In this document: positions 21,528-36,825 of the stretch, piece by piece
Layout: each line of letters starts with the position of its first letter
Position numbering within the stretch: the stretch's first letter is position 1
Origin: Hydrogenophilales bacterium
Lineage (GTDB): Bacteria; Pseudomonadota; Gammaproteobacteria; Burkholderiales; Thiobacillaceae
Assembly: GCA_016195805.1 (NCBI GenBank)
Contig: JACPYT010000016.1
Coordinates: 1-64,000 of the forward strand
Direction: 5' to 3'
Length of the DNA stretch: 64,000 nt
Notes under the pieces: model-generated
What the model was told of the DNA's origin: nothing
Database searches by the model: none
What the model saw: the letters and a program-made list of their open reading frames with translations, nothing else
Translations under genes and position numbers: made by a program

Positions 21528-22256
21528 TTAACGCAGCAGGGTCAGCACGGTTTGCGGCGTCTGGTTGGCCTGCGCCAGGACCGCGGTGCCTGCCTGTTGC
21601 AGGATGTTGTTCTTGGCCTGGGCCGAGGTTTCGGCAGCGTAGTCGGTATCCATGACACGGCTGTAGGACGCCGAAAGGTTGACCGAAGCGGTCTGCAGCG
21701 TGGCTACTGCTGACGAAAGCGCTGACATGTCGGCACCGTATTTGGCGCGCTGGGTGTTGATTGCGGTCAGCTCGGTGTCGAATGCGCTCAGGCTGGCGAA
21801 GGCCGTCGCGGCCGTGTACGCCGTGGTCGCCGCACCGCCGGCGGTGGCAAGATTCGCGTCGACCGTCACTTTGGTGTCAGCTGTTGTCAAAGCGGAAATA
21901 CGGGCGTTTTCGGCGAGGAGCTGGGTTGCTTCTGCGTTCGAGGTAAAAGCAGCGCTACCGCCCTGGATGTAGATTTCGCGCAGGCGCTGCGTATTCTCGG
22001 TGATTTGGGCCATGTAGCCGTCGTTGGTTTGCGCCTGGGAGATCCCGTTATTGGCATTGCGGATGTTCATGTTCGCGCCGCGAATCTGGGCGTCGTAGTT
22101 GGTAGCGATGCCGAGGCCGGTCGCGTCGTCCTTTGCGCTGTTGATGCGCAGGCCGGACGACAGTCGTTCTTGGGCAGTTTGCAAAGCGGCTGCAGACCTG
22201 TTCAGGGCAGCGCCGGCAAACAGAGCGGCTACGTTGGTGTTGATTACTTGTGCCAT
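21528..22256 (-). CDS. fliC: Flagellin (short form)
   Basis: Filament subunit. The 242-residue protein is short: it has the conserved N-terminal D0/D1 region (MAQVINTNVAALFAG, then ERLSSGLRINSAKDDATGLG) and the C-terminal D1/D0 region ending NQTPQTVLTLLR. Only a small Ala/Thr-rich bridge lies between them, and the exposed D2/D3 domains are missing. Several core positions differ from common flagellins (GLGIATNYDAQIRG; ALSSAVATLQTASVNL). A FliA promoter lies 114 bases upstream and AAGGAG precedes the ATG. Ser/Thr in the short central segment are possible glycosylation sites for the operon at 24210-31887 (inference). Confidence 0.94.
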   Translation of the reverse strand: MAQVINTNVAALFAGAALNRSAAALQTAQERLSSGLRINSAKDDATGLGIATNYDAQIRGANMNIRNANNGISQAQTNDGYMAQITENTQRLREIYIQGGSAAFTSNAEATQLLAENARISALTTADTKVTVDANLATAGGAATTAYTAATAFASLSAFDTELTAINTQRAKYGADMSALSSAVATLQTASVNLSASYSRVMDTDYAAETSAQAKNNILQQAGTAVLAQANQTPQTVLTLLR

Positions 22257-22425: not shown

Positions 22426-24000
22426 TCAGTCCGCGGCCTGCACAGGGGCCTCAGGAGCCAGGCAGACCCGGTTCTTGCCGCGCTGCTTGGCTTCGTACAT
22501 GGCGCTGTCGGCGCGAGCGATCGAGGCTTCCTGCGATTCGCCGGGAGTACGTTCGGCGACGCCGGCGCTGAAGGTGATCAGCACGCGCTCGTTGTTGTCG
22601 AGGAAGTATTTCTTGGTGAGGCTGCGCTGCAGGCGGGTGATGATTCGTGCGGCCTCGTCGAGCGGCGTGTTGGGGAGGATGACGATAAATTCCTCGCCGC
22701 CCAGGCGCGCGATGTGGTCGGTGAGACGCAGCTCTTCCTTCGCAACCTTGACCAGATGGATGAGGGCTTCGTCGCCGGTCTGGTGGCCGCGTGTGTCGTT
22801 CAGTGTCTTGAAGTTGTCGACGTCGAGTACGGCGATGCTGAAGGGGGTGTTGTAGCGGTCGGCGCGCGAGGCTTCACGTGCAAACTCGTCATCCAGGCCG
22901 CGCCGGTTGAGGCTGCGCGTCATCGGGTCTTCGCGTACGAGCGCGCTCATCTGGGCGAGTTCGGCTTCCAACTGCTTGATGCGGTCTTCGGCCTGCAGGG
23001 CGGTGTCGCGTTCCAGAATCAGCTGTTCGTGGGCGCGACGGGTATCCGACTGCGCGGCGCGGGTTTCATCCAGCAGGGTCTCGAGGATGCGGTTCAGCTC
23101 CAGCACGTCTTCGGTGTTGCTGATGCGCTCGATGTGGGAGGTTATCTTGCCCTGGTATTCGTCATTGGCCGCCACGGCGTCGCTCATGCGGCTGACGAAG
23201 GTGGTCATGGTGGCTTTGAGTGTGGCGGTGGCTTCGCGCAGGCCGTGCTTGACCATGCTTTGCTTGAAGATGACGTCCTTGAGCCGTTTTTCCGCCTCCT
23301 GCAGCGACTGGATCCGGAGCGGGCCGGTAATGACTTTTTGCACCAGGTCGAGCTGGCCGCGCAGCCAGGTGTCGTCGTCGAGCAGTTCGCCGATGTTTTC
23401 CACCAGCAGCAGCAGGATGCGCTTGAGCATTTCCTGCTGTTGCTGGACGTCCGGCGCCTGCATCTCGATGCCGACCCACAGGGATTTCAGGCCGGATGCG
23501 GCATTGCGCAGGGAGGCGGCGCCGTCGGCATCGCGTACAGCGTCGGCCAGCTCCTGGGCCTTTTCCGCCAGGCGCGGGCTGTGGGACAGCTGGGTGACGA
23601 CGCCGAATTCCAAAGTTTTGGCCAGCAGGTCGCGCAGCAGGGCCAAGTTCTCGCCGCCGCCGCTTTCGCCTTGCTGTTTGAGCAGCAGGGTGATCTGGCC
23701 CAGTTGCCTGCGGCACAGCGCCCAGTCGCCCTTGCGGATGGCCTGGTTCAGGGCTTCCACGGGGGCGGCCAGTTCGGGATATTGTCGATTGAGGTCCATC
23801 ACCAGCCCGGACAACGCCGTGACGGCAGAAGGCAGGTTGAGGTCGGCCGTGGGAGCGCTGGGCACGCCGACGATTTCCTCGTACAGGGTCTGGTAGTTGT
23901 CCGGGGTCGGCGCAATCCGGCGCATGGCGAGGCGGCGCAGGGTCTCGCGCGCCACTTCGGTCGGGTTGTCCAGATTGATATTGACGGTTGGTTCAGCCAT
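22426..24000 (-). CDS. GGDEF diguanylate cyclase
   Basis: Makes cyclic di-GMP from two GTP. The 524-residue protein has a long helical N-terminal part (about 1-340) of unknown fold with a predicted coiled coil just before the catalytic domain. The GGDEF domain (about 355-515) has active site RLGGEEF near residue 433. The product-inhibition I-site RLTD lies exactly five residues before GGEEF, so the enzyme is likely active and feedback-inhibited. No membrane segment is seen, so it is cytoplasmic. It lies directly upstream of fliC and in one block with a PilZ motor brake. A 55-base element upstream (24036-24090) is shared with the glycan operon. Confidence 0.92.
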   Translation of the reverse strand: MAEPTVNINLDNPTEVARETLRRLAMRRIAPTPDNYQTLYEEIVGVPSAPTADLNLPSAVTALSGLVMDLNRQYPELAAPVEALNQAIRKGDWALCRRQLGQITLLLKQQGESGGGENLALLRDLLAKTLEFGVVTQLSHSPRLAEKAQELADAVRDADGAASLRNAASGLKSLWVGIEMQAPDVQQQQEMLKRILLLLVENIGELLDDDTWLRGQLDLVQKVITGPLRIQSLQEAEKRLKDVIFKQSMVKHGLREATATLKATMTTFVSRMSDAVAANDEYQGKITSHIERISNTEDVLELNRILETLLDETRAAQSDTRRAHEQLILERDTALQAEDRIKQLEAELAQMSALVREDPMTRSLNRRGLDDEFAREASRADRYNTPFSIAVLDVDNFKTLNDTRGHQTGDEALIHLVKVAKEELRLTDHIARLGGEEFIVILPNTPLDEAARIITRLQRSLTKKYFLDNNERVLITFSAGVAERTPGESQEASIARADSAMYEAKQRGKNRVCLAPEAPVQAAD

Positions 24001-24035
24001 GGCGGCGCTCAGCCCCGGAGAGAGTATTTGCTATG

Positions 24036-24090
24036 CCTCGCATGTTAGGGGTGGCCAGTCCGCGGCGAAGGCTGGATTAGGGTAGTAAAA
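24036..24090 (-). promoter_or_regulatory. Conserved upstream element, copy A (before diguanylate cyclase)
   Basis: This 55-base segment aligns without gaps to 31931-31985 with 41 identities. Both end 35-43 bases before the start codon of a minus-strand gene. Read on the minus strand it contains CCCTAAT, then CCTTCGCC and, 16 bases further, TAACAT, resembling an activator site with weak -35 and -10 boxes. The regulator is unknown. Confidence 0.6.
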
Positions 24091-24209
24091 GGGGGGTATT
24101 TCTGGGGAAGGGTGCGAGAGGAGTGCCACCGCCCGCTCCACATTCGTGGGAACGAACGGTGTGTCGGGAACCCTCGCTCATGCGCCTGCAGGCACATCGC
24201 CGCGCCACG

Positions 24210-25337
24210 CTACAGGCTAAGCCATTCCATGCGGCGCGCGGATTCGGCGATCTTCTCCAGAAAATGCAGGCCTTCCCTCGATTGGGTAGCTCCGAACACG
24301 AATTCTGAAGGCTCGTACTGCCCTTCCTTGAGGGATCGCAATTCGCCAGCGATATCTGCGTAGAGGTTCGCAAATGCCTCGATGAACCCCGAAGGGTGCC
24401 CAGCCTTGAAACGGTTGTAACGCAATTGCTGTGCGGTCTTCGCCTCACACGATCCGCGATCCAACCTGCAGTGACGGCCGTCGTTATCCGCCCAATTCAG
24501 GTTTTCGGGTTCCATCTGGAACCACTCTGCACTGGCAGAATCCCCGAAGACCCGAATGCGCAGCCCATTTCGAAGGCCGAGAGCGGTTTTCCCCCACCAC
24601 GCATTGACGCGTATGTCGTCCTCGTAATGGGTCAGGCAATAGACATTGTCGATCAGCCCGTCGAACTGCCCATAACTCGATTGGTCGCCAACCAGGCTCT
24701 GCGGTTTGCAATGCCCCGTCAGGAAATCGACCAGATGGTGTACGTGAACCCCCAGGTCGAGCGATACGGTTGGTACCGCATAGTCGACCCTGCGCCAGTC
24801 CTGAGGGTTTGCGCCCAGACGCAGGAAACCCTCCTGAGGCATTTCGATCTGAATCTGCTGGATCTTTCCGAGGCGGCCTTCGCGCATCATTCGCTGAAGT
24901 TCCCTGACCATGGGGTATCCGGAGTAGTTGTACGTCACGGCAAGATACCCGCGCTTTCGCTCGATCGCTTCTTCAATCGCCCGGCAATCGGCACTGGACA
25001 CCGCAAGCGCTTTTTCGCAAATCACCGGAAAGCCCGCGTCGATTGCTTCGATGGCGATTTCCGTGTGGTTTGGCGTTGGCGTGAGAATCACCACCGCATC
25101 GATACTGCCCGCCTCAACACCAAGCAATTCTTGCCAACTCCGGTACAGCCGCTCGGGAGCTACGCCGTAGACACGCGCGGAGTGCTCGTTCTGGGAGGGA
25201 TCACGACTGAAGCAGCCGGCTTCGACGCGAAAGTGGCCATCAAGCCGACTCGCGTTGAAGTGCGTGAATCCCACTGCAGAGTTCAATGCGCCACCGATGA
25301 ATGCAATGCGCAGCGGTTCATGAGGAGTAAAGGTCAT
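24210..25337 (-). CDS. Gfo/Idh/MocA family oxidoreductase
   Basis: NAD(P)-dependent sugar dehydrogenase or reductase of the Gfo/Idh/MocA family. The 375-residue protein has an N-terminal Rossmann fold (IAFIGGALNSAVG near residue 10) and the family dinucleotide strand AVVILTPTPNHTEIA. CEKALAV supplies the conserved Lys (EKP-type). The C-terminal domain contains the DLGVHVHHLVDFL segment. It is the last gene of the glycan operon, 74 bases after the FkbM gene. Base composition of 24210-27700 looks lower in GC than flanking flagellar genes. The substrate is unknown, probably a nucleotide-linked sugar. Confidence 0.85.
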   Translation of the reverse strand: MTFTPHEPLRIAFIGGALNSAVGFTHFNASRLDGHFRVEAGCFSRDPSQNEHSARVYGVAPERLYRSWQELLGVEAGSIDAVVILTPTPNHTEIAIEAIDAGFPVICEKALAVSSADCRAIEEAIERKRGYLAVTYNYSGYPMVRELQRMMREGRLGKIQQIQIEMPQEGFLRLGANPQDWRRVDYAVPTVSLDLGVHVHHLVDFLTGHCKPQSLVGDQSSYGQFDGLIDNVYCLTHYEDDIRVNAWWGKTALGLRNGLRIRVFGDSASAEWFQMEPENLNWADNDGRHCRLDRGSCEAKTAQQLRYNRFKAGHPSGFIEAFANLYADIAGELRSLKEGQYEPSEFVFGATQSREGLHFLEKIAESARRMEWLSL

Positions 25338-25411
25338 AGTAATGGGTTCGCATTCGTTGGAATAATCGTCCTGAGCGTTTCAAGCCTGTCTCGAGCCCTG
25401 TTGCGATCGAG

Positions 25412-26506
25412 TCACACGAAAAACATAACAGTCTCCGACCACCCTTGCGTGTAGTGGCGAAGAAAGACCCGATAATCCGGATTCAAGGACAAGATGAAAT
25501 TTGGGATCTCACGAAAATCACTGGCCGAGTGGTAGACGGAGATCGCCAGTTTTGGTTTGTTCTCAAGAATGTGTCCCCGACAGCCGGACAACGCTTTGAG
25601 CTCCCACCCCTCGAGATCCATCTTGATGAAACTGACGGGCTGTTTGACGGCTTGATCGAGCGTCGTCACTTTGATGCGCTTATCGGAGGTCGAGGACACC
25701 GATGATGCCGAACCCGAATCAGGGTCGAATGACAACTCGCCGTCACAGTCCGACAGCCCTTCCTGGATGAACTCGATATCGCGGAATTCCTTGAGCCGAA
25801 CTCGCGCAGCCGCCATGTTTGATCCAGAGGGCTCGAACAAGAACACCTTCTCGTAGTCCGGGTGCCGTCGACAGAACTCCTCGGTCGTATCGCCGTCGAA
25901 CCCGCCTGCATCGACGAACACCTCGCGCCTCAGTTCCAGAAATTCCTCGAAGTATTGATCCCGCAGTCGAACCTTGTAGCCGTTCATGTAATCGGCATCG
26001 GCGGTCAGGCGATACCTCAAGATGTCCGACAAAGTCTGTTTCGATTCCTCATCCTCAAGGCGTTCGAACAGATTTCCCCATTCGCCTTGATGGTCCTGAT
26101 AATCGCGTCGTTGATCAATTACGAATTTCGGCCATTTGATTCGTCCGCCGGCTGCGTGAATCAGCTCACTGATGTTCAGCAGCCCCTTGATGGGCTGCAC
26201 ACCCATTTTCGTACTGACATCGACCGGGCTGATCGACGTCGAACAGTTGAGGATCACGGCATCTTTCGGAAGCTGGGCGGAAGCAACCACCTTCAAATCG
26301 TTCCATATCCCTCCACTTTTGGCGAAGTCGTCGACGAGCCCGTCCAGATGGACCAGCGCTGCGACCCCGGCAGACTGCTCGTTCCGGCCAATCACGAATC
26401 GCGTGAAGCCTGGCGCCGGCATCAGGAATCGTGAGGCAAGATCCTGTCTGCCAGGGATCCGACGCAACGCACCAAGGACTTGTTGCTCAAATTCATCGCG
26501 CGTCAT
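25412..26506 (-). CDS. FkbM family SAM-dependent methyltransferase
   Basis: Probable O-methyltransferase acting on a sugar. The 364-residue protein has an N-terminal segment (about 1-180) without a recognised motif. An FkbM domain follows, with SAM motif VFVDAGGFDGDT near residue 208 and the family signature FIKMDLEGWELKAL further on. The ATG at 26506 is chosen for a GGAG site and because it overlaps the ATP-grasp gene end by 14 bases. In the operon it probably decorates a sugar added by the GT41 protein (inference). Confidence 0.85.
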   Translation of the reverse strand: MTRDEFEQQVLGALRRIPGRQDLASRFLMPAPGFTRFVIGRNEQSAGVAALVHLDGLVDDFAKSGGIWNDLKVVASAQLPKDAVILNCSTSISPVDVSTKMGVQPIKGLLNISELIHAAGGRIKWPKFVIDQRRDYQDHQGEWGNLFERLEDEESKQTLSDILRYRLTADADYMNGYKVRLRDQYFEEFLELRREVFVDAGGFDGDTTEEFCRRHPDYEKVFLFEPSGSNMAAARVRLKEFRDIEFIQEGLSDCDGELSFDPDSGSASSVSSTSDKRIKVTTLDQAVKQPVSFIKMDLEGWELKALSGCRGHILENKPKLAISVYHSASDFREIPNFILSLNPDYRVFLRHYTQGWSETVMFFV

Positions 26507-27689
26507 CTTGCTCTCCAAGAGAAAGCTTCCCCAGTGGCGGAGATACCCGGTAGATTTCTCGTCTAAGCATCCGTTCGAACAGCCGATCCTGATCCCCCCG
26601 GTTCCTGGATTCGACAAAAAGCAAACCAATTCGACTGAATGGGCTGGGTCGGATCAAGTCGCCCGCGATTGCCAAGGGCACCCATTTGACAATCTGCATT
26701 GGGCTCCTGAACTCGACGGATTCCATATGCTGTTCGTATGGCAGGGAAACCGTGTGACGGGTGATCCAGTTGTGCTGGAGCGCCTTCGGCGGCTCGATCA
26801 TGGTTTGGCCGATGAAAGGCCGCGCATACGCCTCACAGTACGGGAATCCGGTCGACAGTTCGATCAACTGGCTGTACAGGTCGCCCGGACAGCGCCGTGT
26901 GACTTCCACGAACCAGAACCGATCGCCCTCGACGAGAAACTGCGTATGGAGCAGTCCATCCTGCAAGGCCAGTCGCCCGGCCAGTTTGATGATTTCACCG
27001 CGTATGGCCTCGAGCATATCCGTGGAAAACGCGTAATCGACCCGACTGATATCGACGACAAAAGGATTTGCCGTCCCGTGCTCTTCCACGATGAAATCGG
27101 CAACGATAACGTTGTTCGCGACGAATGCGGAGTGACTGTAAAGGCGCCCGGATATGTACTCCTCGATAATGCAGGTGTTCGATCTTGAAAATGACTCGGC
27201 AGCCGCAATCGCAGCGTCAAGCGCCTTGCGGTCACTTCCACGGACAACTGTTGTCCCTCGACCGCTGAATGCGTCAACCGGCTTGACGATGACTTGCCCG
27301 TCCGTTCCCCCCCGGTCTGCTGGAAACACCTTTGGCACTGGAATTCCGGCATCGGCGGCGAACCGCCTGAACCTTTCTTTGTTGTTGATGACTTCGGTGG
27401 CCTCTACTGTGTCAATCCCATAATAGGGGCGACGCTGATTGATCTCGGCACAGGCCAGATAGGACCGATCATTGCATCCTGGAACCAGGTAATGGATCCC
27501 GAGACGGTCAACCAGCTCCGTCAAGGCATCGACATTCGAATAGTCAAGATTGACGTAGTTCTTTGCGGTGCGCGCGAGATAGTCATTCGGGTTTCCACCG
27601 ACGACAAACACTTCGTTCCCTGTGCCGATCAGATATCGATAGATCGGCGATGCCGAAACATTCGTGTCGACAAGAAGTATTTTTTTCAT
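26493..27689 (-). CDS. ATP-grasp domain carboxylate-amine ligase family protein
   Basis: ATP-grasp enzymes join a carboxylate to an amine through an acyl phosphate. The 398-residue protein starts with a pre-ATP-grasp Rossmann-like domain (KKILLVDTNVSASPIYRYL). An ATP-grasp fold follows (about 105-300) with QVIVKPVDAFSGRGTTVV, CIIEEYISG and the metal-binding WFVEVTRRCPGD. It overlaps the aminotransferase by four bases. In this setting it may attach an amino acid or amide to an amino sugar, a modification known from other bacterial surface glycans; the actual substrate is not shown by the sequence. Confidence 0.82.
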   Translation of the reverse strand: MKKILLVDTNVSASPIYRYLIGTGNEVFVVGGNPNDYLARTAKNYVNLDYSNVDALTELVDRLGIHYLVPGCNDRSYLACAEINQRRPYYGIDTVEATEVINNKERFRRFAADAGIPVPKVFPADRGGTDGQVIVKPVDAFSGRGTTVVRGSDRKALDAAIAAAESFSRSNTCIIEEYISGRLYSHSAFVANNVIVADFIVEEHGTANPFVVDISRVDYAFSTDMLEAIRGEIIKLAGRLALQDGLLHTQFLVEGDRFWFVEVTRRCPGDLYSQLIELSTGFPYCEAYARPFIGQTMIEPPKALQHNWITRHTVSLPYEQHMESVEFRSPMQIVKWVPLAIAGDLIRPSPFSRIGLLFVESRNRGDQDRLFERMLRREIYRVSPPLGKLSLGEQDDAR

Positions 27690-28873
27690 CGTGACGGCGC
27701 GATCGCGGTTGACTCTGATGGGTGGACGCAGGGCATGCCGTCAACGTGCGGCCTGCGACAGCCCGCGATCAACCCAATAACAAAATCGATCTGTTCATTG
27801 GCCAGCCCCGGGTAAATGGGCAGGCAGATCACCTGTGCTGATGCTTTTTTCGCGACTGGCAAATTGGAATGAGCAGCCGACGGCATCCCGCGATACATCG
27901 GAAAATCACTGATCAACGGATAGAAGTAGCGCCGTGCATAAACGCTGTTGTCACGCAGTATCTGATAGAGCGCATCCCGGCTGAGCGGAAAGTCTGGGCG
28001 CACCATGATCGGGAAATAGGAGTAGTTCGTCACCTCCTCACTCACCATACCCAGGCAATGGATGCCGTCGACGCCAGCCAAGCCGGCACGGTAGCGGGCA
28101 TCTATTGCCCGCCGCTGCAGCAGCGCCGCGTCGATTCCCTTGAGTTGCAGCATGCCGAAGGCTGCATTGATTTCGCTCATCTTGCCATTGATGCCGGACG
28201 CTACGACAGTGACTTCGTCGACAAAACCGAAATTTTTCAGGTGATCGATGTGGCGCTTGGTCTTGGCGTCCTGGCAGACGATGGCGCCGCCCTCGAAGGT
28301 GTTGAACACCTTGGTCGCGTGGAAACTCAGCACCGACAGATCGCCATGGTTGAGCACGCTTTCGCCCTGAAATTGAACACCAAAGGCATGGGCAGAATCG
28401 TAGATCACCTTCAATCGATAGTTGTCGGCGATTTCCTGGATGCGCACCACATCACAGGGATGGCCATAGCAATGGACGGGCATGATAGCGGTGGTCTGCG
28501 GCGTGATGGCTGCCTCGATTTTGTCGGGGTCGAGGTTGAGCGTATTCGGGTCGACATCAACGAATACCGGCTTGATGCCATTCCACAGAAGAGAATGAGC
28601 CGTGGCCACGAAAGAGTAGGGGGTAGTGATGACTTCGCCCGTGACACGCAATGCCTGGAGAGCGGTCACAAGCGCGAGTGTGCCGTTGGCGAACAGCGAA
28701 ATGTGCTTGACACCCAGATAATCGCAAAGCGCACGCTCAAATTGCTCGTGAAACGGACCATTATTGGTCAACCATTTGCTCTCCCAGATCTGCTCCAGAT
28801 AGGGAATGAACTCTTCCAATGGCGGCAACAATGGCCGTGTCACGTGAACGGGCGATGTCTTCCTGGAAGTCAT
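27686..28873 (-). CDS. DegT/DnrJ/EryC1/StrS family sugar aminotransferase
   Basis: PLP-dependent transaminase that converts a keto-sugar nucleotide to an amino sugar. The 395-residue protein shows the family order: LFANGTLALVTALQAL, the PLP contact PVHCYGHPCDV, then YDSAHAFG. The Schiff-base Lys sits in SFHATKVFNTFEGG near residue 188, and NGKMSEINAAFG follows. No keto-sugar-forming 4,6-dehydratase is in the window, so the substrate must come from elsewhere. It overlaps the GT41 gene by four bases (ATGA). Confidence 0.9.
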   Translation of the reverse strand: MTSRKTSPVHVTRPLLPPLEEFIPYLEQIWESKWLTNNGPFHEQFERALCDYLGVKHISLFANGTLALVTALQALRVTGEVITTPYSFVATAHSLLWNGIKPVFVDVDPNTLNLDPDKIEAAITPQTTAIMPVHCYGHPCDVVRIQEIADNYRLKVIYDSAHAFGVQFQGESVLNHGDLSVLSFHATKVFNTFEGGAIVCQDAKTKRHIDHLKNFGFVDEVTVVASGINGKMSEINAAFGMLQLKGIDAALLQRRAIDARYRAGLAGVDGIHCLGMVSEEVTNYSYFPIMVRPDFPLSRDALYQILRDNSVYARRYFYPLISDFPMYRGMPSAAHSNLPVAKKASAQVICLPIYPGLANEQIDFVIGLIAGCRRPHVDGMPCVHPSESTAIAPSR

Positions 28874-31800
28874 TTGTCTGCATCCTCTGTCGCGCTGGTT
28901 ACATCGTGCAAATGCACTTCGAACGACTCGGCCGGCATGCCCTCACACCAACGACGCCACATGGTTCGCAGTGCGCGCTCCAACCCGGCGGCAATGATTT
29001 CCGGCTTGCGTAATGGGGACTGGCTCAAATGGTCGCGAAGGCTGCTGCGCAATTTGTCGAGTGCGACAAGGTTCTCCGACCAATACACTCCCCGTGCCAC
29101 AAAGTATTCGGCATCCTCAACACCAAAATCCGGCAAGCCGGCCTGGGATAGTATCGCCACGCCCACTCTGCCCGGCGTGCCCGCACCAGCCAATGTCAAT
29201 GTCGGTACCCCCATCCACAGCGCGTGGTGGGTCGTGGTGCCACCGTTGTAGGGAAAGGTGTCGAGACAGATATCAACCTGGTGATGCAGGCGCAGGTAGT
29301 TTTCCATGTTGCTGCGCGGGTGGAAATCCAGGCGCTCCCGTGCCACCCCCTCATTTTCAAACCATTCAACCAGTGCATCTGGTTTGCCATCCGTTGGCAT
29401 GGCTCCCAGCAGCATGCGTGAATCGGGCAGCGCGCGCAGCAGTTTCGACCAAAGTGCAATGACTTCACGGCTCAATTTGTTAGGCCGGTTGAAGCTGCCG
29501 AAGGTCATATAGCCGTTGCTCAGCGCAGGCAAAGCGTTGACTACTGGCGCGAGCTCGTAAGGCAAGAATGGCACATTGGCTGGCAGACGGGCTATTTTCT
29601 CAGTGAACTGGTCGTCAAATTGACCAGGTGGCAACAGGAAACGGTCAGCCAGGTAGTAATCCACTGCATGAAGTCCGGTCGTGCCGGGGTAGCCAATCCA
29701 GCTTGCCTGGATTGGCGCAGGTTTACGGGCAAAGGTCAACAGGCGATTTTTGGCAGTGTGGCCTGAGAGATCGATCAGGATGTCGATCCCGTCAGCGCTG
29801 ATTTTTTCCGCCAACGCGGCATCCGACAGGCCAACAATCGGGTGCCAGTGTGCGAAGTGACCCCGCAAGCGTTGTGTGACATTGTCAATAACTAAGTTGT
29901 TGTAGTAGGCGTGCAGTGACAATTGCGGATAGCCAGCCAGTTGAGTCAGTACCGGCTCGATGAAGTTCGCAACAGCATGGTTGTAGAAGTCACCCGAGAC
30001 AAAACCAATTCGTAAACAGCGTTCAGGATCTTTTGAATGGGTATGTCGTGGCCAATGAGCACGCAGGGGGGCTTCAAATTGTTCGCCGAATCGGCAGTGT
30101 TCGAGAAATAATAATTTTGCATCCGTTTTTTCGTTTAGGGCAAGGTAGTAAAGCAGGTTGCTATAGCTATTGGCCATGTCAGGGGCAAGGTCCAATGCTC
30201 GTCTAAAGCTGACTCCGGCTTCATCGGGGCGGCACAGACTCAAGAGGGTGTTAGCCAGGTTGCAATGTGCCGTAATGCTGTCCGGCATGATCTGTAGCAC
30301 CCGCTGATAGCTGATTTCGGCGTCCTCAAAATGGCCTACATGACTGAAGATCCGGCCCAGTTGGAAGTGCGCGGTAGCATCTTCCGGGTTGATCTTTAAC
30401 AAGCGTTGATAGCACGCTTCGGCCTCATTCAGGAGATCCTGCTCATGAAGGAGCTTGCCTAGGTTCTCGAGAGCTTTGATGTTGTATGGCTCGATCTCCA
30501 GGGCCCTGCGATAGCAGGCCTCGGCCAGTCCCAACTGATCCTGCTCCTGGAAAATTGACCCCAGGTTGTTATGTGCGTTCGCGTACTCCGGCCTGATTTC
30601 CAGCGCTCGCAGATAGCTGATCCTGGCTTGTTCGATTTGGCCCAGTTTCTGCAGGACGACCCCCAGGCTGCTGTGCGCCTCTACATAATCCGGCTTGATC
30701 TCCAGCGCACGTCTATAACTGGCCTCTGCGTCCTCCATTCGGCCAAGTTCCTGGAAGACGTTGCCCAGGTTGCCGAGTACCTCGGTAAAACTGGGATTGA
30801 TCTCCAGTGCTCGCCGGTAGCTGGCTTCTGCTTCATCCAGTCGACCAAGCGTCTGCAAGGTATTGCCAAGATTGCTGTGCGCCGCAGCGTTATGCGGTTG
30901 AAGTTGTAATGCTTGCCGGCAACTGGCTTCGGCTGCATCGAGTCTGCCCAGATCCTTGAGCGTTGCGCCCAGATTGTTGTGCGCCTCGGCGTAATCCGGC
31001 TTGATCCGTACCGCTTTCCGCAAGTTTTTCTCGGCTTCTTCCGGATGGCCCAGGTTACGTAAGGTAACGCCCAGATTGCAGAGTGCATCGGCATAATGCG
31101 GGTTGATCCGCAGCGCTCGCCGGTAGCTGGATTCCGCCTCTTGCGGCCGGCCCAGTCCCTGCAGGGTAACACCCAGGTTGTAATGGGCCTCGACGTCGTT
31201 CGGAGAAAGCGCTGCCGCTTTTTTCATGGGTTCCAGCGCATCCGCGCAGCTGCCCAATTGCATGTAAACCACACCCAGGGTCTTCCAGCCGAACTCGTTC
31301 TGAGGAAATTGCTCCGTCATCGTTCGAGCGAGGGCGACGGCTTCTGCATGGCGCCCTTCGCGGAACGCGGCCAGCAGCGTGTCCAATTCCCTGGGGCTGG
31401 GTTGCTTTTTCTTGTGTGAAGCCGATTTTCTGGCGGATGCAACGGGCATTGCCTCCCTGGGGGGGCGCCGGTGCCCGGTAGTTGATGGTTCCGGGGGCTG
31501 AGCACTGTCGAGCCGTGCCGCCAATGCGTCTACTTCATCACCTTGCAATCCCTGCCGCCGGGCAAGGGCTAGCACCTGTCGCGCATCCTCCTGCTGGCCG
31601 GCCTGGGACAATGCGTCGATGTAGCCGAGCCAGAATTGGCCGCGCGTTGGGTCGGCATCCAGCGCCGCATTGAAATAGGGAAGCGCGGCGGCGAAATGAT
31701 TCGTCTGTACGGCCAATATGCCCAGGTGGTAGTTCGCCTCGGGATGATTCGGCTGGGCTTGCAGGAGGGCCAGGTAACGCCTGGCGGCGTCTTCCAGCTG

Positions 31801-31887
31801 CCCGGCCTGATGTAGAGCGACCGCCTGCCCGAGGGCCTGCTCGATCGTTTGCGCTTCGGGTTGCTGGAGGAAGGCGCTTGTAGCCAT
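28870..31887 (-). CDS. TPR-repeat GT41 glycosyltransferase (SPINDLY/OGT-like)
   Basis: Very large (1005-residue) protein with many 34-residue TPR units over roughly residues 20-580. The central block has consecutive consensus repeats ending YRRALEI(N/K)P. A GT41 catalytic region begins near residue 623. The GT41 hallmarks are all present: GFVSGDFYNHAV, IDLSGHTAKNRL, GSFNRPNKLS (nucleotide-sugar Lys) and DTFPYNGGTTTHHALWMG. GT41 enzymes transfer a sugar to Ser or Thr of proteins bound along the TPR superhelix. As first gene of an operon beside flagellin, it is the likely flagellin or surface-protein O-glycosyltransferase (inference). The ATG at 31887 (MATSAFLQQ) is chosen; an open frame upstream overlaps the promoter element. 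Confidence 0.93.
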   Translation of the reverse strand: MATSAFLQQPEAQTIEQALGQAVALHQAGQLEDAARRYLALLQAQPNHPEANYHLGILAVQTNHFAAALPYFNAALDADPTRGQFWLGYIDALSQAGQQEDARQVLALARRQGLQGDEVDALAARLDSAQPPEPSTTGHRRPPREAMPVASARKSASHKKKQPSPRELDTLLAAFREGRHAEAVALARTMTEQFPQNEFGWKTLGVVYMQLGSCADALEPMKKAAALSPNDVEAHYNLGVTLQGLGRPQEAESSYRRALRINPHYADALCNLGVTLRNLGHPEEAEKNLRKAVRIKPDYAEAHNNLGATLKDLGRLDAAEASCRQALQLQPHNAAAHSNLGNTLQTLGRLDEAEASYRRALEINPSFTEVLGNLGNVFQELGRMEDAEASYRRALEIKPDYVEAHSSLGVVLQKLGQIEQARISYLRALEIRPEYANAHNNLGSIFQEQDQLGLAEACYRRALEIEPYNIKALENLGKLLHEQDLLNEAEACYQRLLKINPEDATAHFQLGRIFSHVGHFEDAEISYQRVLQIMPDSITAHCNLANTLLSLCRPDEAGVSFRRALDLAPDMANSYSNLLYYLALNEKTDAKLLFLEHCRFGEQFEAPLRAHWPRHTHSKDPERCLRIGFVSGDFYNHAVANFIEPVLTQLAGYPQLSLHAYYNNLVIDNVTQRLRGHFAHWHPIVGLSDAALAEKISADGIDILIDLSGHTAKNRLLTFARKPAPIQASWIGYPGTTGLHAVDYYLADRFLLPPGQFDDQFTEKIARLPANVPFLPYELAPVVNALPALSNGYMTFGSFNRPNKLSREVIALWSKLLRALPDSRMLLGAMPTDGKPDALVEWFENEGVARERLDFHPRSNMENYLRLHHQVDICLDTFPYNGGTTTHHALWMGVPTLTLAGAGTPGRVGVAILSQAGLPDFGVEDAEYFVARGVYWSENLVALDKLRSSLRDHLSQSPLRKPEIIAAGLERALRTMWRRWCEGMPAESFEVHLHDVTSATEDADK

Positions 31888-31930
31888 GAGTGATGATTTG
31901 CCCTGATCGGGACGATGACCCTTTACCATT

Positions 31931-31985
31931 CCTCGCATGGTAGGCGCCGCCGGTGCAGGCCGAAGGATGAATTAGGGCGGGAAAA
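31931..31985 (-). promoter_or_regulatory. Conserved upstream element, copy B (before the GT41 operon)
   Basis: 41 of 55 bases match 24036-24090 without gaps. On the minus strand it reads CCCTAAT, then CCTTCGGC, 16 bases, TACCAT, ending 43 bases before the GT41 start. Spacing between TTCGGC and TACCAT equals that of copy A, consistent with a common promoter type controlled by one regulator. Confidence 0.6.
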
Positions 31986-32002
31986 CCCCGGCAATTCCGG
32001 GG
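31982..32002 (-). terminator. Rho-independent terminator of the NarL-type regulator gene
   Basis: On the minus strand CCCCGG (32002-31997), a five-base loop and CCGGGG (31991-31986) are followed directly by TTTT (31985-31982). It lies 57 bases after the regulator stop and just upstream of the GT41 operon promoter element, insulating the two units. Confidence 0.75.
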
Positions 32003-32058
32003 ATGGGGGCGGCTGCCGGATTCCTGCGGGGAAAATGCCGGCGCTCTCGAGCGGCCGA

Positions 32059-32706
32059 TCAGTCCAGCAGGCCGTGCTTGATGGCGTAATGCGTCAGCTC
32101 GGCGTTGTTTTTCAACTGCATTTTCTGCAGCAGGCGGGCTCGGTACATGCTGATGGTCTTGACCGACAGGGCGAGCTTGTCGGCGATGGCGGTGACGGTG
32201 AGTCCCGAGGCGATCATGCACAGGGTCTGGTATTCGCGGTTGGACAGGATCTCGTGCGGCAGGCCGGCGCGTTCGCCGCTGATCTGGCTGGCGAGTTCCT
32301 GGGCGACTTCGGCGCTGATGTATTTCTTGCCCGAGGCGACCAGGCGGATGGCGTCGACCAGCTGGTCCGGCGCACTCTGCTTGTTGAGATAGCCCGCCGC
32401 ACCGGATTTCAGCGCCCGCACCGCGTACTGGGTTTCCCGGTACATGGAGAGCATCAGCACCTTGATGCCGGGGTGTTCCTTTTTCATGAGCTCCAGCGTT
32501 TCCAGGCCGCTGCGGTCGGGCATGGAAATGTCCATCAGCACCAGGTCCCACGGTTCCAGCCGGGCCATCTGCAGGGCGCGGCTGGAACAGTCGGCCTCGC
32601 CGGCCACCACGATGTCCTCGACGTCGGCCAGGATCAGCTTGAGTCCCTCGCGGACGATGGCATGGTCGTCGACGATGAGGATGCGATAGGGTTTTGCTGC
32701 CGCCAC
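32059..32706 (-). CDS. NarL/FixJ-type LuxR-family response regulator
   Basis: DNA-binding two-component regulator of 215 residues. The receiver domain (about 5-125) has DD at 13-14, phospho-acceptor D59 and Lys in YLNKQS. The LuxR helix-turn-helix (about 148-210) has LSNREYQTLCMIASG and TVTAIADKLALSVKTISMYR. It lies 36 bases after its sensor kinase and is transcribed with it. The target is unknown. The adjacent GT41 operon is a natural candidate because its upstream element starts just past this gene's terminator. Confidence 0.92.
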   Translation of the reverse strand: MAAAKPYRILIVDDHAIVREGLKLILADVEDIVVAGEADCSSRALQMARLEPWDLVLMDISMPDRSGLETLELMKKEHPGIKVLMLSMYRETQYAVRALKSGAAGYLNKQSAPDQLVDAIRLVASGKKYISAEVAQELASQISGERAGLPHEILSNREYQTLCMIASGLTVTAIADKLALSVKTISMYRARLLQKMQLKNNAELTHYAIKHGLLD

Positions 32707-34326: not shown

Positions 34327-34351
34327 AGACTGATCGATGAGGGAATACCGT

Positions 34352-35734
34352 ATGTCCACCACACGCCCCGCTGCCGTTGCAGGGTTGTTCTACCCGGACA
34401 ACCCGACCGAGCTCAAGCGTACCGTTATCGACCTGCTGGCCGCCGTCAGGGGAGAGGCTTCGCTGCATGCGCCGAAGGCGCTGATCGTTCCGCATGCCGG
34501 CTATATCTATTCCGGTGCCGTTGCCGCCAGTGCCTATGCGCGACTGGGCGGGCTGCGCGGCCGCATCCGCCGGGTGGTACTGCTCGGCCCCACGCATCGC
34601 GTCCCGGTGCGGGGGCTGGCGCTGCCCGAGGCGGAGCGTTTTGCCACCCCGCTCGGCGACGTCCAGCTGGATCGTGCGGGTATGCAGGCCATTGCCCGTC
34701 TGCCGCAGGTGGTTCGCAGCGCGGCGGCGCATCAGATGGAGCATTCGCTGGAAGTGCAGCTGCCCTTCCTGCAGCAGGTGCTGGGCGATTTCCAGCTGCT
34801 GCCGCTGGCGGTGGGCGACGCCACCGCTGCCGAGGTGGCCGAGGTGCTGGAGACCGTGTGGGGCGGCGGCGAGACGCTGATCGTGATCAGTTCCGACCTG
34901 TCGCACTTCCTGCCGGACGCGCTCGCCCGCCAGGTCGACGGCGCCACCGTGGACGCCATCCTGGCGCTGGATTCGCACCTCAATCACGAACAGGCCTGCG
35001 GCGCCACGCCGGTCAACGGCCTGCTGCTGGCGGCGCGCAGGCATGGCCTGCACCCGGTCGCGCTGGACGTGCGCAACTCCAGCGACACCACCGGCGATCC
35101 CGAGCGGGTGGTCGGCTATGCCGCCTTTGCCTTTCAGGCCGAGGCAGGTCCTGAGCGGAACCGGAAAGTCGAGGCCGAAGAGGCCGATACAGAGAAAGGC
35201 ACATCCCTGCTGAAGCTGGCGCGCGCCGAGATCGCCAGACAGTTCTGGGAGGACATGGCGGAGCCGCCGGTCAGGTCCTGGATGGCCGAGCCCGGGGCCA
35301 GTTTCGTCACGCTCATCCGGCAGGGCGATTTGCGCGGCTGTATCGGCAGCCTGGAGGCGCATCGCCCGCTGGGGCTGGATGTGCGCAAGAACGCCGTGGC
35401 GGCGGCATTTCGCGACCCCCGCTTCATGCCGCTCGCCCGCAAGGAGTTCGAAGACGTACGGGTCGAGGTATCGGTGCTGTCGCCCCATGAACCGCTGGTG
35501 GTCGGCAGCGAAAAGGACGCGCTGGACGCCTTGCGGCCCGGCATCGACGGCGTGGTGTTCGAATACGGGCATTTCAGGAGCACCTTCCTGCCGCAGGTGT
35601 GGGAGCAGCTGCCCGATCCGGCCGAGTTTCTCGCCCATCTCAAGCGCAAGGCCGGGCTGCCGATGGATTTCTGGGCGGACGCGGTGCGCCTGTCACGCTA
35701 CACGGTCGATAAATGGAGGGAGGCGGTCGCATGA
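34352..35734 (+). CDS. AmmeMemoRadiSam system fusion protein AmrB-AmrA (MEMO1-AMMECR1)
   Basis: Single 460-residue polypeptide joining two proteins that are separate in many genomes. Residues 1-262 are a MEMO1/AmrB domain keeping the metal ligands expected from MEMO1: H48 (PHAGYIYSG), H82 (GPTHR) and C216 (EQACGATP), plus H131 (MEHSLEVQLPF). After a charged linker (about 265-285), residues 285-460 are an AMMECR1/AmrA domain with the hallmark LRGCIGSLE near 327. The ATG at 34352 has a GAGGGA site; an ATG at 34337 is less favoured. The stop overlaps the radical SAM gene start. The biochemical role of this system is not established; the metal site suggests oxidative or redox chemistry. Confidence 0.93.
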   Translation: MSTTRPAAVAGLFYPDNPTELKRTVIDLLAAVRGEASLHAPKALIVPHAGYIYSGAVAASAYARLGGLRGRIRRVVLLGPTHRVPVRGLALPEAERFATPLGDVQLDRAGMQAIARLPQVVRSAAAHQMEHSLEVQLPFLQQVLGDFQLLPLAVGDATAAEVAEVLETVWGGGETLIVISSDLSHFLPDALARQVDGATVDAILALDSHLNHEQACGATPVNGLLLAARRHGLHPVALDVRNSSDTTGDPERVVGYAAFAFQAEAGPERNRKVEAEEADTEKGTSLLKLARAEIARQFWEDMAEPPVRSWMAEPGASFVTLIRQGDLRGCIGSLEAHRPLGLDVRKNAVAAAFRDPRFMPLARKEFEDVRVEVSVLSPHEPLVVGSEKDALDALRPGIDGVVFEYGHFRSTFLPQVWEQLPDPAEFLAHLKRKAGLPMDFWADAVRLSRYTVDKWREAVA

Positions 35735-36825
35735 GCATTCCCGAATCGCATTATCCTGCGCGCTGGTGGCATGTGCTGCCCGACGGTCGCATCGAGTGCG
35801 ACCTGTGCCCGCGCTACTGCAAGCTGCACGAGGGGCAGCGCGGCTTGTGCTTCGTGCGCAAGAACGAAGGCGGCAAGCTGGTCCTCACCACCTACGGCCG
35901 CTCGTCCGGTTTCTGCGTCGACCCGATCGAGAAGAAGCCGCTCAACCATTTCTATCCCGGTTCGTCGGTGTTTTCCTTCGGCACCGCCGGCTGCAACCTG
36001 GCGTGCAAGTTCTGCCAGAACTGGGACATCTCCAAGTCGCGCGAGACCGACACCATGGTCGACCAGGCGATGCCGGACGAGATCGCCCGGGCGGCCGAAG
36101 AAAGCGGCTGCAAGAGCGTGGCCTTCACCTATAACGATCCGGTGATCTTCGCCGAATACGCGATGGACGTGGCCGACGCCTGCCATGCGCGCGGCATCAA
36201 GACCGTGGCAGTCACCGCAGGCTACATCACCGAGGAACCGCGCCGCGAATTCTATTCAAAGATGGATGCGGCCAACGTCGACCTCAAGGGCTTCACCGAC
36301 GACTTCTACGTCAAGCTGACCGGCGGTCACCTGCAGCCGGTGCTCGACACGCTGATGTATCTGAAGCGCGAAACGAACGTCTGGTTCGAGATCACCACGC
36401 TGCTGATTCCCGGCCACAACGATTCCGACGCCGAGCTCGGGGCGATGAGCCAGTGGATCCTGCGCGAACTCGGCCCCGACGTGCCGCTGCATTTTTCTGC
36501 CTTCCACCCCGACTGGAAGATGCGGGACGTGCCGCCCACGCCGGCCTCCACGCTGACGCGGGCGCGCGACATCGCGCTGAAGGCCGGGCTGCACTATGTC
36601 TACACCGGCAACGTGCACGACCCGGCCGGCGGCACCACGTCCTGCCCGGGCTGCCACGCGCCGCTGATCGTGCGCGACTGGTACCGCATCGACCACTACA
36701 GCGTGACGCCCGACGGCCATTGCCCGAAGTGCGGCAGCGCCATCGCCGGCCGCTTCGGCGCGTTCAGCCATCCCTTCGGTAACCGCCGCATTCCGGTTGC
36801 CATGCACCGGGAGGACCGGCCATGA
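35731..36825 (+). CDS. amrS: AmmeMemoRadiSam system radical SAM enzyme (AmrS)
   Basis: Radical SAM protein of 364 residues. The 4Fe-4S/SAM motif is C88-x3-C92-x2-C95 (GCNLACKFCQNW). An additional N-terminal Cys set (C23, C26, C30, C40) and a C-terminal CPGC...CPKC pair could bind further clusters or zinc, as in pyruvate-formate-lyase-activase relatives. The ATG at 35731 has a strong GGAGG site and overlaps the AmrB-A stop by four bases. The stop overlaps the hydrolase gene by four bases. The substrate is unknown. Confidence 0.93.
   Translation: MSIPESHYPARWWHVLPDGRIECDLCPRYCKLHEGQRGLCFVRKNEGGKLVLTTYGRSSGFCVDPIEKKPLNHFYPGSSVFSFGTAGCNLACKFCQNWDISKSRETDTMVDQAMPDEIARAAEESGCKSVAFTYNDPVIFAEYAMDVADACHARGIKTVAVTAGYITEEPRREFYSKMDAANVDLKGFTDDFYVKLTGGHLQPVLDTLMYLKRETNVWFEITTLLIPGHNDSDAELGAMSQWILRELGPDVPLHFSAFHPDWKMRDVPPTPASTLTRARDIALKAGLHYVYTGNVHDPAGGTTSCPGCHAPLIVRDWYRIDHYSVTPDGHCPKCGSAIAGRFGAFSHPFGNRRIPVAMHREDRP

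Follow-up and report, generated by a model that had tools for sequence, protein, structure and literature searches.

Flagellin glycosylation islands (FGIs) in which GT41 enzymes accompany DegT and FkbM genes have already been described in Enterobacteriaceae (PMC4875605), and the viosamine on the flagellin of Pseudomonas syringae is known to be both acylated and methylated (PMC3927599); these and the other published systems discussed here are cited from parts of the respective papers. The locus presented here lies in a stretch of 64,000 nucleotides (positions 1 to 64,000 of contig JACPYT010000016.1, assembly GCA_016195805.1; hereafter the window) from the 2.96-Mb genome of a Hydrogenophilales bacterium, in which five genes make up an 8.06-kb island of low GC content at third codon positions (GC3), set at a clean insertion site between a LuxR-type response regulator gene and a GGDEF gene, upstream of the flagellin gene fliC. 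On balance, the island probably serves the glycosylation of flagellin by a GT41-type enzyme, with an ATP-grasp ligase that N-acylates a dTDP-amino-dideoxy sugar, a reading in which we infer the substrates, the reactions and the acceptor. Taken separately, two of its parts are firmer: flagellin is quite likely to be the acceptor, and the ATP-grasp protein is likely, to a slightly lesser degree, to be an amino-sugar acyl ligase.

All five open reading frames (ORFs) reported by a first-pass annotation of the window are present on the minus strand, and each protein has a Pfam match to the family proposed there, that of the ATP-grasp protein being weak by sequence. They encode a protein O-glycosyltransferase of 1005 amino acids (aa) with tetratricopeptide repeats (TPRs) and a SPINDLY/OGT-like GT41 part, the candidate enzyme for flagellin (28870..31887); a 395-aa, DesI-like sugar aminotransferase of the DegT/DnrJ/EryC1/StrS family (27686..28873); a 398-aa ATP-grasp carboxylate-amine ligase, the proposed amino-sugar N-acyl ligase (26493..27689); a 364-aa FkbM-type methyltransferase, N-terminally extended by ~195 residues (25412..26506); and a 375-aa Gfo/Idh/MocA oxidoreductase, the usual partner of the ATP-grasp protein (24210..25337). 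The annotated overlaps of 4 to 14 bases measure 4, 4 and 14 bases from GT41 through DegT and ATP-grasp to FkbM, and the remaining junction, between FkbM and Gfo/Idh/MocA, is a gap of 74 bases. The block had also been placed directly beside fliC, which has to be corrected: the GGDEF gene (22426..24000, minus strand) sits in between, followed by fliC (21528..22256, minus strand; 242 aa, the proposed acceptor), flaG and fliD, which leaves the island one gene from fliC. The block is more than a chance assembly: the same five genes recur in the same order in genomes G811 and G034 (the FkbM gene of G811 being a different gene).

A fliC match exists in 45 of 56 congeneric genomes, and the limits of the island can be read from 20 of these fliC regions, picked by hand and mostly the top-scoring ones. 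The GGDEF gene, the right flank, has a match of 64-86% in 19 of the 20, the twentieth ending at a contig edge, and it is found together with the left flank, the LuxR-type regulator gene (32059..32706, minus strand), in 16. Fourteen of these 16 regions have an empty site, with a LuxR-GGDEF spacing of 114-210 bp (which describes the fliC site only), and two are filled, by 8332 bp in G811 and 9413 bp in G012, the filling of the window being 8058 bp. In G811, four genes match the window at 72-92% and the FkbM gene is a different one (39%); the FkbM tree, which keeps the two very long rows of G713 and G771 and excludes the second FkbM of G771 and those of G1202, G1347 and G1331, is incongruent, and the Gfo/Idh/MocA tree has no starred branch and hence provides no test of FkbM exchange. 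In G012, the filling holds relatives of the DegT, Gfo/Idh/MocA, FkbM and GT41 genes, and an AMP-ligase and a hexapeptide acyltransferase replace the ATP-grasp gene. G026 has part of a GT41 gene, a dehydratase/epimerase and a C-methyltransferase before its GGDEF gene, at a contig edge; at the GGDEF side, G803 carries a peptidase and G010 an efflux system, and G004 reaches a contig edge. Both the presence and the content of the filling vary among close relatives. The GC3 of the island genes is 0.63-0.69, against 0.745-0.87 in five flanking genes, and no mobile-element gene lies within the island, its five genes all being assigned to other families.

A ~90-bp element that belongs to the empty site occurs twice in the window, once at either flank of the island, the left copy preceding the GT41 gene (31922..32011, minus strand) and the right copy the GGDEF gene (24027..24116, minus strand). 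The two copies are identical at 64 of 90 positions (derived from an ungapped score of 50, the maximum of 1000 shuffles being 31); the pair is clear in G012 (score 93 vs. 30 in 200 shuffles) and undetectable across the two sides of G811 (score 16 vs. 26 in shuffles). A general repeat search returned short matches only, the flank repeat having come from direct comparison of the flanks. The first gene of the island is therefore preceded by a diverged version of the flagellar GGDEF leader, a possible promoter. The 1005-aa start of the GT41 protein is also more likely than the ATG at 31938 of a longer ORF, because that ATG falls within the repeated element, the other copy of which precedes the GGDEF gene. 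Within the element, the motif ATGC-N3-GCAT is kept in seven of eight aligned GGDEF leaders (counted by eye). When the regions upstream of 17 fliC genes are aligned, they show a conserved element of their own, and a GCC(C/T)TAA core, seen by eye only, is common to it and to the element before the GGDEF and GT41 genes. A sigma-28 scan with an E. coli-type consensus found no site, not even upstream of fliC, and so carries no weight for the island; generic scans of the island gave 0 sigma-70-like sites vs. 4.1 expected and 6 terminator-like sites vs. 7.5 expected, neither above chance.

Three observations argue for an island directed at flagellin: the clean insertion site, the alternative GT41 fillings and the presence of all five families by fliC in G713. 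In this distant gammaproteobacterium, a run of GT41, DegT, ATP-grasp, Gfo/Idh/MocA and FkbM genes, the last two swapped relative to the window, lies between a sigma-factor gene (FliA-like) and fliC, with a 464-aa ORF without Pfam match before fliC; its GT41 enzyme is fused to a methyltransferase and has weak TPR matches. In G771, the neighbours of the ATP-grasp and DegT genes include three flagellins and a Maf-type transferase. Three of the four five-gene sets (the window, G811 and G713) are beside fliC, the exception being that of G034. Flagellin_N matches were found in 9/10 and 5/7 of the ATP-grasp genomes tested, with a model that can match FlgL too; the other match of the source genome is a 298-aa FlgL-like gene (FlgL by its length and neighbours).

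On the preferred reading, the island would have been acquired horizontally and would serve flagellin glycosylation. RmlB, whose gene is located elsewhere in the source genome, would yield dTDP-4-keto-6-deoxyglucose, and the DegT enzyme would aminate it to a dTDP-4-amino-4,6-dideoxyhexose of the viosamine (Qui4N) type. The ATP-grasp ligase would then form an amide between a carboxylic acid and the sugar amine by direct ligation, the Gfo/Idh/MocA enzyme would make or adjust the acid or acyl group in a redox step, and FkbM would O-methylate the product. Finally, the TPR/GT41 enzyme, the only glycosyltransferase of the island, would use its TPRs to bind cytoplasmic FliC and would move one decorated sugar onto Ser/Thr residues before export. 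The DegT protein scores 354 bits in Pfam, with DesI as its top NCBIfam match (311 bits vs. a cut-off of 650) and 2po3, which we take to be DesI, as its top match in the PDB (239.5 bits). The ATP-grasp protein has a weak match to ATP-grasp_3 (25 bits vs. a cut-off of 23.2), and its predicted structure, modeled from a 6-sequence alignment with a predicted local distance difference test (pLDDT) score of 81.5, has the ATP-grasp fold; an earlier 3-sequence model (pLDDT 53.7) was discarded. The FkbM protein matches Methyltransf_21 (39 bits) and TIGR01444 (59.5 bits), its residues 1-195 being without Pfam match and alignable to N-terminal stretches of three relatives, and the Gfo/Idh/MocA protein matches GFO_IDH_MocA (53.5 bits). 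The GT41 protein matches Glyco_transf_41 above the Pfam cut-off (142 bits), together with many TPRs, and no methyltransferase domain is found among the best 25 of its 33 Pfam matches. In the PDB, its catalytic part comes closest to SPINDLY (266 bits) and then to 5djs (239 bits); H637 and K804, presumably the catalytic His and the nucleotide-binding Lys, align with H218 and K388 of XcOGT, the Lys also with K665 of SPY.

The ATP-grasp gene is rare, being found in 3/56 congeneric genomes, 3/60 relatives, 4/399 genomes of the order, 7/369 of the class, 7/398 of the phylum and 3/394 of the order of G713 (the own or centre genome is counted in every case, the genome sets overlap, and queries and cut-offs differ). 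Twenty of 21 distinct bacterial ATP-grasp loci were examined, a second Rhizobium plasmid being left out, and 14 of them, in stretches of at most ~20 kb (4.9 kb for locus L011), match the core ATP-grasp type best. Among these 14, a Gfo/Idh/MocA relative (at least 41%) occurs in 12, with none in the stretch of G771 and only a distant one (27%) in G761; a DegT-family gene in 13, the exception being G038; FkbM in 11; GT41 in four (the window, G811, G034 and G713); and fliC in four (the window, G811, G713 and G771). The six more distant loci have no Gfo/Idh/MocA match and, in five cases, a DegT-family match. Altogether, a DegT-family gene lies in the stretch of the ATP-grasp gene in 18 of the 20 loci, which, with the AMP-ligase and acyltransferase taking the place of the latter in G012, lends indirect support to the amide-decorated amino sugar that had been proposed from the annotation. 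The pair also reaches viruses: in five of five IMG/VR contigs, three of them nearly identical, a Gfo/Idh/MocA relative (at least 41%) immediately precedes the ATP-grasp gene (at about 6900-9160 in L104, L105, L106 and L108 and at L107:3794-6054). A GT2-radical-SAM fusion lies ahead of the pair in the three viral contigs compared (L104, L105 and L108) and is also seen within the flagellin locus of G771 (L027:11736-14048); L105 further encodes a GT8 protein, a short DegT-like ORF and a large collagen-repeat/S74 protein, and L104 a methyltransferase. Outside flagellar loci, a fatty-acid-desaturase-type gene recurs beside the pair in L013, L030 and L103, with a 33% match in L029; in L013 and L103 it comes with a SAM methyltransferase, which suggests further tailoring of the acyl group. 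A broader proposal, to which we give a little less than an even chance, is that ATP-grasp and Gfo/Idh/MocA form a portable module for amino-sugar N-acylation that needs neither acyl-CoA nor acyl carrier protein (ACP). Such a module would act on 3-amino as well as 4-amino dideoxy sugars, would serve viral glycosylation clusters and loci for surface polysaccharides in addition to flagellin islands, and could be exchanged at the same flagellar site for an AMP-ligase with an acyltransferase.

Several observations weigh against a dedicated flagellin island with a 4-amino sugar. The ATP-grasp/Gfo pair also occurs in the viral contigs and in polysaccharide-type loci, two of them, without GT41, in genomes without a Flagellin_N match: G1202 (DegT-ATP-grasp-Gfo-FkbM) and G066 (ATP-grasp-Gfo-FkbM). 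The annotation had named wide occurrence of the operon in genomes lacking flagella as a sign against its proposal; the full five genes always come with a Flagellin_N match (four genomes of four), and it is these three- or four-gene subsets that do without. G034 carries its five genes on a contig other than that of fliC, and its fliC site is empty; attachment to flagellin, as first proposed, has the backing of the insertion site, of the GT41 alternatives in relatives and of G713, and is weakened by G034 and by sugar genes that are not flagellum-specific. The fetched stretches further show an ATP-grasp gene without Gfo/Idh/MocA in G771 and without DegT in G038. The DegT score falls below the DesI equivalog cut-off and therefore leaves the 4-amino position tentative. 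Foldseek places 4dim, annotated as phosphoribosylglycinamide synthetase, first and 3vot third for the ATP-grasp model, with many biotin carboxylases near, and the sequence profile gives 64.8 and 30 bits, respectively, so that amide ligation is not specifically indicated by the fold. A second TPR-GT41 gene of the source genome (868 aa, ~36% to the island enzyme; G000:C14:47295-49901, i.e., L015:7296-9902), which sits downstream of PLD-like and porin genes, could encode a competing transferase. Lastly, Ser/Thr enrichment of flagellin in island genomes was considered and rejected, the 24 flagellins compared (the partial one of G004 being left out) showing no difference: the central region holds 11-16 Ser/Thr in the four island genomes vs. 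5-16 in island-free ones, with 15 in G034 and with 16 in the island-free G013, equal to the window.

GT41 enzymes modify many kinds of proteins, and the five genes of G034 lie beside DHO_dh- and TPP-enzyme-like genes, as might be expected if the set glycosylated one or more other proteins and its proximity to fliC were incidental. Such general O-glycosylation is nevertheless unlikely in view of the GT41 fillings before GGDEF-fliC in four congeneric genomes, the window included (the left flank in G026 was not seen), and of the fliC adjacency in the distant G713. Slightly less probable still is a supply of the four sugar genes to a surface polysaccharide (lipopolysaccharide or capsule), with GT41 as a passenger: related cassettes do stand with rmlABCD or FdtA and with GT2/GT61 genes in G1202, G066 and G346, but no polysaccharide glycosyltransferase, flippase or polymerase is found among the five island genes, the GT41 and DegT genes overlap by 4 bases, and in three congeneric genomes GT41 is the first gene of the block.

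Two further alternatives concern the product rather than the acceptor. Pairs of Gfo/Idh/MocA and DegT enzymes of the WlbA/WlbE or NtdC/NtdA type are known, in which a sugar C3-dehydrogenase serves a 3-aminotransferase; a similar division of labor here would give a 3-amino sugar without RmlB and would be compatible with the role in flagellin modification. The Gfo/Idh/MocA protein does have a weak NCBIfam match to UDP-GlcNAc 3-dehydrogenase (46.9 bits vs. a cut-off of 450) and NtdA is among the PDB matches of the DegT protein, whose best NCBIfam match, however, is DesI. Moreover, Gfo/Idh/MocA accompanies ATP-grasp even alongside an FdtA and DegT-family pair that needs no extra dehydrogenase (G066 and G346), as well as in viral contigs where the sole DegT-like gene seen is the short ORF of L105, and a 3-amino sugar is accordingly improbable, about as much so as general O-glycosylation. 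Far more remote is a free amino-sugar or aminocyclitol metabolite, for which speaks a 3-dehydroquinate-synthase-like gene (family assigned by eye) between DegT and ATP-grasp in L011 (1380-2510; contig labelled uncultured Bacteroidales); L011 is a single short contig of 4.9 kb, and the island has a GT41 protein glycosyltransferase and a flagellar site. Outside the island, the window holds at 34337-36825, beside a histidine kinase, a fusion gene followed by a radical-SAM gene, presumably of the Memo/AMMECR1 and AmrS types; matches to the former occur in 10 of the 20 fetched congeneric regions.

If flagellin glycosylation by this island is borne out, a direct-ligation route to acylated amino sugars would join the toolkit of flagellin glycans, and the site would amount to a natural swap experiment, being empty in some close relatives and occupied in others by this island or by another acylation route. 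The range of sugars that GT41 enzymes can transfer would be informed as well, by a bacterial SPINDLY/OGT-like example whose acceptor is likely a protein and whose donor is unusual. No published account of the five-gene set was found in the open-licence literature, supplements excluded, nor any paper there that joins ATP-grasp with flagellin glycans. A Treponema denticola flagellin glycan with an unusual hexanoyl group was also sought, but the term is absent from the 8 papers listed of 42, and this glycan is not drawn on here. Caulobacter FlmG, a flagellin O-glycosyltransferase, resembles the GT41 enzyme of the window in its N-terminal TPR domain, which binds flagellin, and its GT-B-like C-terminal domain, as judged from its described architecture; unlike that enzyme, it has 596 aa, and it uses pseudaminic acid (PMC7591256). 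In the group III FGIs of Aeromonas, which serve the polar flagellin, a methyltransferase and PLP-dependent transferases likewise accompany a Gfo/Idh/MocA oxidoreductase; their context is pseudaminic acid, and the gene list of the figure legend has no ATP-grasp (PMC7874193). The P. syringae island is close to the route proposed here in that the aminotransferase VioA leads to dTDP-viosamine, which is N-acylated, O-methylated by VioM and carried by flagellin; there, however, acylation relies on an ACP, a ketoacyl synthase, a reductase and VioB, in place of which ATP-grasp and Gfo/Idh/MocA are proposed here, and the sugar caps a rhamnose chain, whereas the window island has a single GT41 (PMC3927599). 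Within the island, to which this comparison was confined, none of the five genes encodes any of these four acylation functions. The FGIs of Enterobacteriaceae come close in gene content: these islands, which vary and are exchanged horizontally, combine SPINDLY-domain GT41 enzymes with aminotransferases of the DegT and methyltransferases of the FkbM family, and some hold acyl-activating genes (CaiC-type ligases). Most of their GT41 enzymes bear a methyltransferase domain, as that of G713 does, whereas none is among the 25 best Pfam matches of the window enzyme, and the words ATP-grasp, Gfo and oxidoreductase are absent from the main text (PMC4875605). GT41 flagellin islands are thus known, and what the present locus adds to them, as far as our searches of the open-licence literature reach, is the ATP-grasp/Gfo part.
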